A stretch of 64,000 bases of DNA from NCBI GenBank assembly GCA_900314495.1, contig OMVJ01000007.1, positions 1-64,000 on the forward strand, written 5' to 3'. Source of the stretch: an uncultured Olsenella sp. (GTDB taxonomy: Bacteria > Actinomycetota > Coriobacteriia > Coriobacteriales > Atopobiaceae). The position numbers and the translations under genes were made by a program. This document shows, piece by piece, positions 16,732 through 20,867 of this stretch (the stretch's first letter is position 1; every line of letters starts with the position of its first letter). Below the pieces are notes generated by a model. It searched no databases, was not told the DNA's origin, and saw only the letters and a program-made list of their open reading frames with translations.

Positions 16732-17478
16732 CTAGAAGGCAACGCCCATCGCGATGACGCCCACGCACAGGACAAACATTGCAACGTCCCGTCCCTTGAA
16801 GGGGTAGGTGCGGTAGCTGGACTCCCGCGTGCGCAGGTAGAAGCCCCGCTCCTCTGCCGCCAGGGCGGTGTCGTCCGCCTTGCTCACGGACGAGATGAGC
16901 AGCGGCGCCGCCATGGGCAGCATGAGCTTGAGGCGCGTGAAGGGATTCTTGGAGTCGTACTCCACGCCGCGGGCGGTCTGTGCCTCCATGATCTCTCCCA
17001 TGGAACGCGAGAAGATGGGCACGAAGCGAAGGGCCGTGGTTATGGTGAAGGCATAGCGGTACGGGATGTGCAGCACGCTCACGCAGGCGTTGGCCAGGTC
17101 CGTGAGGGGCGTGAGCGTCAGCATGAGCATGAGCGGCATGGCAAAGGTCAGCAGGCGCAGGGCCACGTGGGCGCCAGTGTCTATGCCCCGGTCCGTGACG
17201 AAGGCGACCACCGGCGTGCCGTCGCGCACGATAATCACCTGCAGCACGAACATGAACAGGGCCAGGACCGTGAAGGCCCCCAGCATGGAGAAGGTCTTCC
17301 TCCCTATGCCCGCGTACACGCCCACCGCGCACACCAGCGCCAGAAGGCCGACCAGCATGACGTAGCCGTTGGCGAAGAAGGTCGCCATGCAGACGCTGAT
17401 GGCGAAGGCGACCTTGGTGATGGGGTTCAGCCTGTGGAAGAGGGAGTCTCCCGGCGCGTAGTCGATGATGCTAGCCAC
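16732..17478 (-). CDS. ecfT: ECF transporter transmembrane subunit EcfT
   Basis: 248-aa scaffold subunit that couples ATP hydrolysis to S-component toppling. Four to five membrane segments come first. The two cytoplasmic coupling helices carry the EcfT Ala-Arg-Gly type motifs, seen as AQTARGVE and AAEERGF. It overlaps the fused S-A-A gene by 8 nt, so it is translationally coupled. The protein contains no tryptophan. As the third gene behind the trp leader it should be expressed with the tryptophan S component. Confidence 0.94.
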   Translation of the reverse strand: MASIIDYAPGDSLFHRLNPITKVAFAISVCMATFFANGYVMLVGLLALVCAVGVYAGIGRKTFSMLGAFTVLALFMFVLQVIIVRDGTPVVAFVTDRGIDTGAHVALRLLTFAMPLMLMLTLTPLTDLANACVSVLHIPYRYAFTITTALRFVPIFSRSMGEIMEAQTARGVEYDSKNPFTRLKLMLPMAAPLLISSVSKADDTALAAEERGFYLRTRESSYRTYPFKGRDVAMFVLCVGVIAMGVAF

Positions 17479-19909
17479 GATCTGCCAACCTTTCCGTTAC
17501 CTCTACAATGTCGTGCACCTCGGTGAGGCCCAGGTACGAGGGGGACACCCTCCGGCCCAGCTCCTCCGAGAGCTGCACCATCTGCGGCGCGGCCACGTAC
17601 GCCTGCGCCATCAGCTCCCCTTGGCGGAAGAGGTCCGAGGGCAGCCCGTCCGCCAGGATGCGGCCGTCGGCCATGACAATGAGGCGCGTGGCGAAGTCCG
17701 CCGCCACCTCCATGTCGTGGCAGACCATGACCACGGCGCAGCCGCGCTCTCGGGCGGCGTTCACGGCGTCCATGACCACCATGCACTCGCGGTAGTCAAG
17801 GCCGCTGGTCGGCTCGTCCAGAATCAGCACGCGGGGCTCCGTCACGATGACCGAGGCCAGAGCCACTATCTGGCGCTGCCCGCGCGAGAGCGCGAAGGGA
17901 GCCGCATCCTCCGGCAGGCCGAAGCGGGCAATGACCTCCCGGGCACGGCACTGGGCCTCCTCCGTCTGCACGCCCAGGAGCTCCAGCGAGAAGGCCACCT
18001 CCTCCAGCACCGTGTTCTTGCAGATCTGCCGGTCCGGGTTCTGGAACAGGGTGGAGACGTAGCGGGCGATCTCGCTGGTGCGGACCTGGGACGTGTCGCA
18101 GCCGGCGATGACCACCCTGCCGCTGGCGGGCTTGAGCAGGCCGTTCATGAGCTTGGTGGCCGTGGTCTTGCCAGCGCCGTTCTGGCCCACGATGCCAACC
18201 AGCTCCCCCGGGCGCGCCTGGAAGGTGAGGTCCGTCACGGACGCCTGGCCTGCGCCGTAGGAGAAGCCCACGTGGTCGAAGACCAGCACCGGCTCCTCTC
18301 CCCCTGCGGCCACGACGGGAGCGGTGGAGGCATACTCCACCGTCTTCCGGGCGTTGCCTCCCACGACGCGCCCGATGAGGGCCGCCGTCTCCGGAACGGT
18401 GACGCAGACCTCGTTCCTGGGGGTGAGCCCGTCCGCGAACAGCTTGTTGGAGACGCGCGTGGTGCGCGGGCAGTCCACGCCCAGCTTGCGCAGCTCGCCC
18501 GCGTGCGCCAGCACCTGCCGAGGGCTGCCGTCGAAGGCGATCCTGCCCTCGGAGACCACCAGCATGCGCTTGCAGAACTCCGTGAGGAGGGCCACCTTCT
18601 GCTCTATGACGACCACCGTGATGCCCTCGCGCTCGTTGAGGCGGCGCAGGGTCTCGAACACCGTGCGTGAGGAGGCGGGGTCCAAGGCGGCCGTGGGCTC
18701 GTCCAGCACCATCACGCTGGGATGCAGGGCCAGGATGGCCGCGATGGCCACCTTCTGCTTCTGCCCGCCGGACAGCGTGGCAATCTCCCTGTCGCGCAGG
18801 TCGGCGATGCCCACCGTGTTCAGGGCGTCGGAGACCACGCCTGGGATCTTATCGTGCGGGACGCCGAAGTTCTCCAGGCCGTACAGGAGCTCGTCCTCCA
18901 CGTTGGAGGCGACCATCTGGGCGTCTATGTCCTGCAGGACCGACCCCACCACCCGCGAGACGTCCGTGAGCGAGATGGTGCACGTGTCCCTGCCGTCCAC
19001 ATAGGCCGCACCGAAGAGGTCACCGGCATAGTGGTGCGGGATGGCACCCGCGAGCACCGCGGCCAGGGTCGTCTTGCCGGCACCGGAAGGGCCGATTACG
19101 CCCACGAACTCCCCGCGGCGGACCTCAAGCGAGACGTGGTCCAGGCCGCGGTGGCCCGACTCGTCGTACACGAACGAGACGTCGTCCAGCCTGATGACGG
19201 CATCCCCGCCGCCCGGCGCTGGGCCGGCAACGGGCGCCACCACGGGAGCGGGGCCCTCCTGCGGTGCCACGTCCCCACGCGCGGGCTCATCCGCGGCCTT
19301 GGCCGACGCCTGCCGCTGGCCCTGCTGCGCCTGGCCCTGCACCCTGGCGCGACTGAAGCGCGCAACCACGGCCTTGAGCGGCACGTAGAGGGCCTGCACC
19401 ACCACGGCGTTGGCGACGGCGGTGCCGAAGACCACCGGGAACATGACCACGATGTTCTGGATGGGCGCCCGCAGCACCACCAGCGTGGAGACGCTTGCGA
19501 AGATGAGGCCGGAGACGACCGTGGTCACGAAGGCAACCACCAGCGGCGCGACGCCGCGGGCGCGAGACCTCAGGAGCGCATGGGCCAGAAGGCCGCAGAC
19601 TATGGACGCCGGGAAGTCGCACAGGTACTCCAGAAGGGGCACCGAGGTCGTGATCTGGATGACGGTCGCTCCCAGCATGCCGATGACCAGCGCCTGGGGA
19701 ACGCCGGGCTCCAGCAGGAGTATGGCCAGGCACACCGACGAGAGCACGAACTCCGGTTGGATGCCCGTCACCGACAGCGCCTTGCCCACCGTGAGGTTGA
19801 GGATGAACCCCGCCGCGAGCAGGATTGCCACCAGGATGAGGGCCGAGACGTCCAGGCGCTGCCGCGTCTGCCGCCCCTGGCCTTCGTTCACACCGTTGCC
19901 ATGTGCCAT
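17471..19909 (-). CDS. Fused ECF protein: TrpP-like S domain plus two ABC ATPase domains
   Basis: 812 aa in three parts. Residues about 20-190 form a membrane domain that aligns along its length with the free S component encoded just upstream (LVAILLAAGFILNLTVG, QPEF, ITTSVP, VTTVVSGLIFA). An Ala/Gln/Pro linker (190-245) follows. ATPase 1 (about 248-480) has Walker A GPSGAGKTT near 273, LSGGQKQ and MVLDEPTAALD. ATPase 2 (about 550-770) has GQNGAGKTT near 575, a variant signature LSRGQRQ, LILDEPTSGLD and H-loop CHDME; ATPase 1 has Gln in place of the H-loop His (VVIEQK). ATG 19909 is chosen because GGAGG lies 8 nt upstream; a TTG 15 nt earlier is in frame. There is no tryptophan in the entire chain. 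The S domain may form a mixed pair with the free S protein or recognise a second substrate. Confidence 0.9.
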   Translation of the reverse strand: MAHGNGVNEGQGRQTRQRLDVSALILVAILLAAGFILNLTVGKALSVTGIQPEFVLSSVCLAILLLEPGVPQALVIGMLGATVIQITTSVPLLEYLCDFPASIVCGLLAHALLRSRARGVAPLVVAFVTTVVSGLIFASVSTLVVLRAPIQNIVVMFPVVFGTAVANAVVVQALYVPLKAVVARFSRARVQGQAQQGQRQASAKAADEPARGDVAPQEGPAPVVAPVAGPAPGGGDAVIRLDDVSFVYDESGHRGLDHVSLEVRRGEFVGVIGPSGAGKTTLAAVLAGAIPHHYAGDLFGAAYVDGRDTCTISLTDVSRVVGSVLQDIDAQMVASNVEDELLYGLENFGVPHDKIPGVVSDALNTVGIADLRDREIATLSGGQKQKVAIAAILALHPSVMVLDEPTAALDPASSRTVFETLRRLNEREGITVVVIEQKVALLTEFCKRMLVVSEGRIAFDGSPRQVLAHAGELRKLGVDCPRTTRVSNKLFADGLTPRNEVCVTVPETAALIGRVVGGNARKTVEYASTAPVVAAGGEEPVLVFDHVGFSYGAGQASVTDLTFQARPGELVGIVGQNGAGKTTATKLMNGLLKPASGRVVIAGCDTSQVRTSEIARYVSTLFQNPDRQICKNTVLEEVAFSLELLGVQTEEAQCRAREVIARFGLPEDAAPFALSRGQRQIVALASVIVTEPRVLILDEPTSGLDYRECMVVMDAVNAARERGCAVVMVCHDMEVAADFATRLIVMADGRILADGLPSDLFRQGELMAQAYVAAPQMVQLSEELGRRVSPSYLGLTEVHDIVEVTERLADRG

Positions 19910-19922
19910 GCCTTTGTCCTCC

Positions 19923-19949
19923 AAAAAGGGCCGGCCCTTGCGGCCGGCC
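19923..19949 (-). terminator. Intercistronic hairpin with T tract, possible partial terminator
   Basis: Self-complementary GGCCGGCC arms (19929-19936 and 19942-19949) around a 5-nt loop are followed on the minus strand by CTTTTT. The hairpin sits between the free S component and the fused S-A-A gene, directly before the latter's ribosome site. It may lower downstream expression so that free S component exceeds the ATPase/T module. Confidence 0.65.
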
Positions 19950-19975: not shown

Positions 19976-20524
19976 TTACTTCTTCTTCGTGGCGATGCTC
20001 AGGGGCTTGACCAGGGCCTGGACCACGATGGCGTTGAATGCCGCGGTGCCGAAGACGATGGGCAGCTTCACCACGATGTTCGCCATGGGGGCGCCCATGA
20101 CGATGTTGCCGCCAGCGGCGAACAGCAGGCCGGACACCAGGGTGGTGACGAAGGCCGCAACAAGGGGCATGACCTTGGTGTTCTTGAGGGCGCTGCGGGT
20201 GAGCGCGAACATCACCAGGGCACCGACGGACTCCGTGAGGAAGTTGAGGCCGGGGATGGAGGTGGTGAGCTGGATGACCACGGCCGTGAGCAGGCCGATG
20301 ATCACGGACTGCGCGGCGGAGGCGTCAAGCAGAAGGATTGCCAGGCAGTAGGCCGCAATCAGGAACTGCGGCTTGATGCCCACGATGCCCAGGGCGTTGC
20401 CCAGGGTGAGGTTGAGGATGAAGCCCGCGGCGAGGAGGATTGCCACGAGGACGAGCGATGCGACGTCGAACGTGCTCTTGGAGCTGTTGCTGGTGACCTT
20501 GCGTGCCTGTTCCTGCTGTGCCAT
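19976..20524 (-). CDS. ECF transporter S component, TrpP-like (probable tryptophan)
   Basis: 182-aa membrane protein with about six segments. It resembles the TrpP family by length, by GIKPQF followed by an ILLLD segment, and by IQLTTSIPGLN in the next loop. The trp-type leader and attenuator directly upstream is independent evidence for tryptophan as substrate. The protein contains no tryptophan residue. ATG 20524 has AAGGGA upstream. Substrate binding is inferred, not shown. Confidence 0.85.
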   Translation of the reverse strand: MAQQEQARKVTSNSSKSTFDVASLVLVAILLAAGFILNLTLGNALGIVGIKPQFLIAAYCLAILLLDASAAQSVIIGLLTAVVIQLTTSIPGLNFLTESVGALVMFALTRSALKNTKVMPLVAAFVTTLVSGLLFAAGGNIVMGAPMANIVVKLPIVFGTAAFNAIVVQALVKPLSIATKKK

Positions 20525-20600: not shown

Positions 20601-20629
20601 AAAAAAGCCCCCGGTCGCAACCGGGAGCT
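20601..20629 (-). terminator. Tryptophan attenuator terminator
   Basis: A 10-bp stem with one G-U pair (arms 20606-20615 and 20620-20629) has a 4-nt loop and is followed on the minus strand by TTTTTT. It lies 28 nt after the stop of the leader peptide and 77 nt before the S-component ATG. Upstream alternatives on the minus strand are a hairpin beginning inside the Trp codons (GGAC 20689-20686 with GTCC 20657-20654, plus inner CAG/CTG) and a TTCGC/GCGAA pairing (20653-20649 with 20634-20630) that reaches the base of the terminator. Confidence 0.88.
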
Positions 20630-20657
20630 TTCGCAAACAAGTGCATGCGCGAAGGAC

Positions 20658-20738
20658 TCACAGCCGACCGACTGAGGGCATACGGGTCCACCACCAGTTC
20701 ATGCTCATGCGCTCGTACGACGCGACGATGCAGGCCAT
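20658..20738 (-). CDS. Trp leader peptide (three consecutive Trp codons)
   Basis: 26-codon reading frame with a strong ribosome site (GGGGAG, 6 nt before ATG 20738), ending in TGA at 20658-20660. Codons 15-17 (20688-20696) are TGG TGG TGG within MNWWWTR. The Trp codons abut the 5' strand of the first leader hairpin, as expected for ribosome-stalling attenuation. It precedes the terminator at 20601-20629 and the TrpP-like ECF transporter. It encodes a regulatory peptide of no expected function of its own. Confidence 0.88.
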   Translation of the reverse strand: MACIVASYERMSMNWWWTRMPSVGRL

Positions 20739-20779
20739 GGTGTGCTCCCCTCTGCCAATCGGTGCGGCCAACGATTGAA

Positions 20780-20843: not shown

Positions 20844-20867
20844 AAAAAGCCCCGCCGTAGCGGGGCT
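20844..20867 (-). terminator. Terminator of the rplU-rpmA operon
   Basis: A perfect 8-bp stem AGCCCCGC/GCGGGGCT (20848-20855, 20860-20867) with a 4-nt loop is followed on the minus strand by TTTTT, 21 nt past the rpmA stop. Confidence 0.92.

Follow-up and report, generated by a model that had tools for sequence, protein, structure and literature searches.

The window analysed here, a 64,000-nucleotide stretch of DNA from an uncultured Olsenella sp. (contig OMVJ01000007.1), carries on its minus strand an ECF transporter operon preceded by a short open reading frame with three successive tryptophan codons. Is this reading frame the sensor of a tryptophan switch, and what does it tell about the cargo of the transporter? 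A preliminary description, made from the letters of the DNA, had proposed ribosome-mediated attenuation of the transporter genes. Our analysis indicates that the ECF importer operon is very probably controlled by a classical transcription attenuator of the ribosome-mediated kind, which responds to tryptophan.

The leader region and the importer operon

Between the upstream gene and the end of the operon, the following features were found.

20848..20867, minus strand: terminator of the upstream rpmA-like gene, which insulates the leader (computed)
20745..20753, minus strand: Shine-Dalgarno sequence of the leader ORF, AGAGGGGAG (sequence)
20658..20738, minus strand: leader peptide ORF, MACIVASYERMSMNWWWTRMPSVGRL, 26 codons plus TGA, with the ATG at 20738 and the TGA at 20660-20658 (sequence; conserved in relatives)
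20688..20696, minus strand: TGG TGG TGG, three Trp codons, codons 15-17 of the leader (sequence)
20656..20698, minus strand: 1:2 (protector) hairpin starting at the Trp codons (fold; cognate pairing in relatives)
20607..20679, minus strand: predicted antiterminator (2:3) fold, with the ribosome stalled at Trp (folding and species-swap test)
20601..20632, minus strand: intrinsic terminator, 13-bp stem (20632-20603) plus six T (20606-20601) (fold; paired changes in relatives)
19976..20524, minus strand: TrpP-family ECF S component, 182 aa, ATG at 20524 (PF17099; S-component fold)
17471..19924, minus strand: second TrpP-like S domain fused to two ECF ATPases (S-A-A), 817-aa ORF with a provisional start codon (profiles)
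16732..17478, minus strand: ECF T component, CbiQ family (profiles)

An ORF led by a Shine-Dalgarno sequence, tandem Trp codons, a protector hairpin, an antiterminator and a terminator together have the makeup expected of a ribosome-mediated Trp attenuator. The core of the antiterminator joins GGUC (20669-20666) with GACC (20616-20613), in addition to GAGU with GCUC, and the terminator lies about 76 nt ahead of the importer operon. No sigma-70 promoter consensus was found at the leader locus. The length of the leader, its strong ribosome site, the place of the Trp codons, the hairpin that begins in them and the canonical six-T terminator in front of the TrpP-like gene had all been given in the preliminary description, and each was found again here, the hairpin by folding.

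The operon encodes the parts of an ECF transporter, namely an S-component fold, two ECF ATPases and a T component. The first S component scored 30.1 bits against PF17099 (gathering 27.2), and the second S domain gave no match to this family. The predicted structure of the first S component reached a pLDDT of 91.5, and its eleven best PDB structure matches in Foldseek were all ECF S components, with probability up to 1.00, TM up to 0.74 and weak E-values; a sequence search of the PDB with the same protein found none. Long open frames resembling the S-A-A fusion were also seen in G042, G047 and G008.

Conservation and competing RNA pairings

Since TGGTGGTGG is frequent in the window (10 occurrences against about 1 expected from dinucleotide shuffles, an about tenfold excess), the triple TGG alone is weak evidence for a leader. 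Given the same excess, Trp runs called from the raw sequence of the window are prone to false positives. The 211 nt around the leader have a fold z of -3.0, and none of 200 shuffles was as stable. As far as sequence allows a judgement, we regard conservation, rather than the triple TGG, as decisive for the reality of the element.

Of the 140 genomes of the family, 69 have the importer, and 64 of these carry the Trp leader, with its conserved Trp codons, together with the terminator. Among 71 distinct TrpP loci, nearly all are preceded by a Trp leader with a Shine-Dalgarno sequence. Typically this is a short ORF with WWW, of the form NWWWR...GR(S/W/L) before the stop, followed by a terminator just past the stop. 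A covariance model (R1) built from 58 leaders of the family matched the importer loci of 63 genomes with E <= 1e-10; the 64th, G017, has a divergent version. Strong matches were also obtained in two other families of the order, which consists mostly of gut bacteria, and among 396 genomes sampled over the phylum they were confined to Coriobacteriia. Named importer-bearing relatives include Olsenella, Tractidigestivibacter and Atopobium. Four weak matches in the phylum outside the class were rejected as terminators without Trp leaders, and several weak R1 matches within the family (for example L127, L129, L131-L135, L137-L139 and L144) were set aside, being ordinary terminators or neighbours of tRNA genes.

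Homologues without the Trp codons or the terminator had been named beforehand as grounds for abandoning the proposal. The leader is missing from only five of the 69 importer genomes, and in two of the five a T-box stands in its place, which leaves the proposal intact. Of the other three, G039 and G040 (L028 and L030) have lost the leader ORF and retain the terminator upstream of trpP, perhaps as decaying attenuators, and G008 has neither leader nor terminator before the importer, with an RNase P gene just upstream. All three possess trpA.

The predicted alternative pairings were compared across the leaders. In the terminator, double changes were found at 8 of 11 pairs. On a fixed alignment the antiterminator pairs were 87.9% paired, and their covariation was not above that of shuffles; the antiterminator core is largely invariant, and column statistics therefore add nothing for it. 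For this reason we used a species-swap duplex test, in which strand pairing within the same leader is compared with that of strands exchanged between species, for 33 divergent representatives and with kinship ignored. The Trp-codon (1:2) hairpin and the antiterminator GGUC...GACC each gave z=-3.5 and the terminator z=-12, whereas non-pairing control segments stayed at |z| <= 1.4. The competition between antiterminator and terminator was also followed by folding. With a ribosome on the Trp codons, the antiterminator of the window RNA was calculated at -35.3 kcal/mol against -32.4 kcal/mol for the enforced terminator, a lead of 2.9 kcal/mol in the stalled state. When the RNA was folded up to the 3' arm of the terminator, the 5' arm was captured with a probability of 0.99 in the window, as compared to 0.50 in shuffles. 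Across the full set of 59 leaders this contrast was smaller (mean 0.70 versus 0.56 shuffled), and folding during transcription went towards the antiterminator in 45 of them. Three putative, mutually exclusive pairings (1:2, antiterminator and terminator) are thus supported.

From this anatomy, its conservation and the competing pairings, we infer the following behaviour of ribosome and terminator. When charged tRNA-Trp is plentiful, the ribosome would pass the three Trp codons and reach the UGA, where it would cover GGUC...GAGUC; with the antiterminator blocked, the terminator at 20632-20601 would halt transcription. When charged tRNA-Trp is scarce, the ribosome would stall on the Trp codons and mask strand 1, and the free strand 2 (GGUCGGCUGUGAGUCCUUCGC) would pair with the terminator along its 5' arm, through the loop and into the beginning of its 3' arm, allowing the importer genes to be transcribed. 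In 56 of the 59 leaders the stop codon comes 12 codons past the first Trp, so that a ribosome completing the peptide would cover the 5' strand of the antiterminator; the E. coli trp leader shares this logic. The divergent RNA of G017, albeit unrelated in sequence, has an equivalent layout, in which WWW is followed by a pairing of ACTCTGA with TCAGAGT that the terminator GGACTTTCA/TGAAAGTCC overlaps.

Other modes of control and the cargo of the importer

Could the conserved peptide, rather than the starved codons, be the sensor? In a TnaC-like system the nascent peptide would bind free tryptophan and stall the ribosome, and the conservation of the peptide around NWWWR...GR would be in keeping with this. 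Within that very motif, though, 57 of 58 leaders encode the conserved Gly by GGT despite the preference for GGC (of the 208 Gly codons counted in five genes of the window, 16 are GGT), and the retention of GGT in the GGUC strand suggests that it is the RNA which has been selected, not the peptide. Furthermore, the reading frames of L029 and L031 end two codons early, and the leader L182 of an NSS-type symporter ends earlier still, yet all three retain the RNA, and G017 keeps the layout with an unrelated RNA sequence. Tandem Trp codons with an intrinsic terminator suit starvation attenuation, whereas induction by free tryptophan would raise the importer with supply. We therefore consider peptide sensing highly improbable. 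An ordinary constitutive terminator, which would lower expression without any switching, is just as poor a candidate: in many leaders no other structure is as stable as the terminator, the stalled state included, and G039 and G040 keep it without a leader, but such a terminator would account neither for the conserved Trp codons, the fixed stop distance and the competing helices nor for the sequence-unrelated equivalent in G017.

The preliminary description had remarked, fairly, that trpP-type genes of Gram positive bacteria are better known for T-box or TRAP control. In B. subtilis, trpP is under TRAP, again a TrpP-family gene answering to tryptophan, albeit by protein-mediated RNA control with no leader peptide. 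T-boxes precede the trp operon of this genome and, elsewhere in the family, the trpP or trpB2 orthologues of other genera. If either system controlled the importer, the Trp-rich ORF would be incidental, and an incidental ORF would not persist in 64 of 69 genomes. Moreover, no T-box (RF00230) match was found at the locus up to E=10, and only a few (G/U)AG triplets are visible by eye in 20738-20601, as opposed to the about 11 closely spaced ones of a TRAP leader. Control of the importer by T-box or TRAP hence seems scarcely credible. Tryptophan attenuation by a translating ribosome, as put forward in the preliminary description, thus draws support from the conserved leader, the three competing helices, the constraint at the RNA level and the T-box replacement on orthologues, and remains our preferred, sequence-based reading.

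The cargo is a separate matter. The attenuator may hold and the importer nevertheless carry another Trp-related compound (indole, a precursor or a derivative), or its two S domains may differ in cargo; we consider this unlikely. The substrate is deduced solely from the regulation and from the name of a Pfam family, PF17099, which the second S domain does not match, and trpB2, whose product would use indole, is under like control and in G298 lies within the operon. On the other side, indole crosses membranes without a transporter, and PF17099 is a tryptophan transporter family. Importer genomes are also more often without trpA (56 of 69, against 39 of 71 others; p=0.001, kinship ignored). Among the weaker matches of the leader model, similar Trp leaders stand in front of trpB2 (TIGR01415), both in this genome and in three other families. 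The second Trp-leader attenuator of this genome (L126, G000:C17:89421-89520), with the peptide MICRHNIASLGALACAGAWWWHKD, precedes trpB2 and lies outside the window. In family f2, similar leaders precede NSS-type sodium symporters (PF00209), and the known Trp transporter TnaT belongs to the NSS family (PMC2494555). G203 has an NSS gene in tandem with the ECF operon, each with its own leader, and in G298 a single leader is followed by trpB2 and then an ECF gene. The leaders before trpB2 and the sodium symporters, along with the more frequent absence of trpA, support a role in tryptophan supply. L-tryptophan is therefore the likely cargo; the earlier assignment of tryptophan as the probable substrate has gained indirect support.

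Trp leaders and T-boxes in Coriobacteriia

In addition to its two Trp leaders, this genome contains a complete trp biosynthesis operon with a T-box of specifier UGG.

L124:11437-11734 (= G000:C36:56436-56733), minus strand: T-box before the trp operon, 53.6 bits, with the core GGUGGCACCGCG

Its score is below the Rfam gathering cut-off of 93, as are those of most T-boxes found in the order. No Trp leader was seen before trpE of this genome. The two importer genomes in which a T-box replaces the leader, G067 and G073, belong to genus g30, and the specifier of this T-box was read as UGG. At both loci (L087 and L088) the T-box terminator is followed, ahead of trpP, by a short ORF with a Shine-Dalgarno sequence (MASKRVFHRLRRHEWRLWS in L088), possibly a second leader. 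Each of the 13 trpB2 loci tested in genera g30 and g35 has a T-box, and none was found at three leaderless or unclear trpB2 loci from other genera. In a trpB2 tree, from which a motif filter had removed ten rows including the trpB2 of this genome, at least two changes between leader and T-box fall on well-supported branches, and the leader-bearing G008 falls inside the T-box side. It is thus reasonable to suppose that the Trp regulon of Coriobacteriia is split between two sensors of charged tRNA-Trp, with translated leaders on salvage genes (ECF trpP, trpB2 and NSS) and UGG T-boxes on the trp biosynthesis operon, and that the sensors have been exchanged on orthologues within one family, at least twice for trpB2; we hold this to be probable.

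How does the element compare with known systems? Like the E. coli-type trpL attenuator (RF00513), it has a short ORF led by a Shine-Dalgarno sequence, tandem Trp codons, 1:2, 2:3 and 3:4 hairpins and a terminator with a U-run, but it would control an importer instead of biosynthesis, and its antiterminator extends through the terminator loop into the 3' arm. Scoring does not place it in RF00513, because the Trp_leader model gave no match at the locus, either at gathering or at E <= 10. No known RNA family of Rfam was found at the locus at gathering or at E <= 10, a His_leader candidate being rejected at 16 bits against a cut-off of 49, and NCBIfam has no family for the leader peptide. Among actinobacteria, Trp-codon leaders with GC-rich terminators are known on the trp operons and trpS of Corynebacterium and Streptomyces, with a gGCC-rGCy-GGCC core (PMC1262725), whereas those of Coriobacteriia have a GGUC/GACC core and stand on trpP-ECF operons, trpB2 and NSS genes. 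T-boxes (RF00230) likewise read tRNA-Trp charging and control Trp synthesis and transport, NSS transporters included (PMC2494555), but without the translation on which a leader depends. Swaps of T-box and leader-peptide sensors between orthologues have been described for hisS, among other genes, both across phyla and inside the Firmicutes (PMC2965389); here the exchange concerns Trp genes within one family of Actinomycetota. In the open literature searched, we found no account of Trp leaders from Coriobacteriia, nor of any before ECF genes. The mechanism is classical, and against that literature what is new is its occurrence in Coriobacteriia and in front of an ECF operon.

The element adds to the known RNA switches a large one absent from Rfam, and provides regulatory grounds on which an ECF system so far uncharacterised, that of Coriobacteriales such as Olsenella, Atopobium and their relatives, may be named a tryptophan importer. 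Many Coriobacteriales are without trpA and must depend on their host or neighbours for tryptophan. The swapping of T-box for leader on the same genes in one family is a natural experiment on sensor choice, and the split of the Trp regulon between two sensors of tRNA charging would make this element more than a new instance of a known mechanism.
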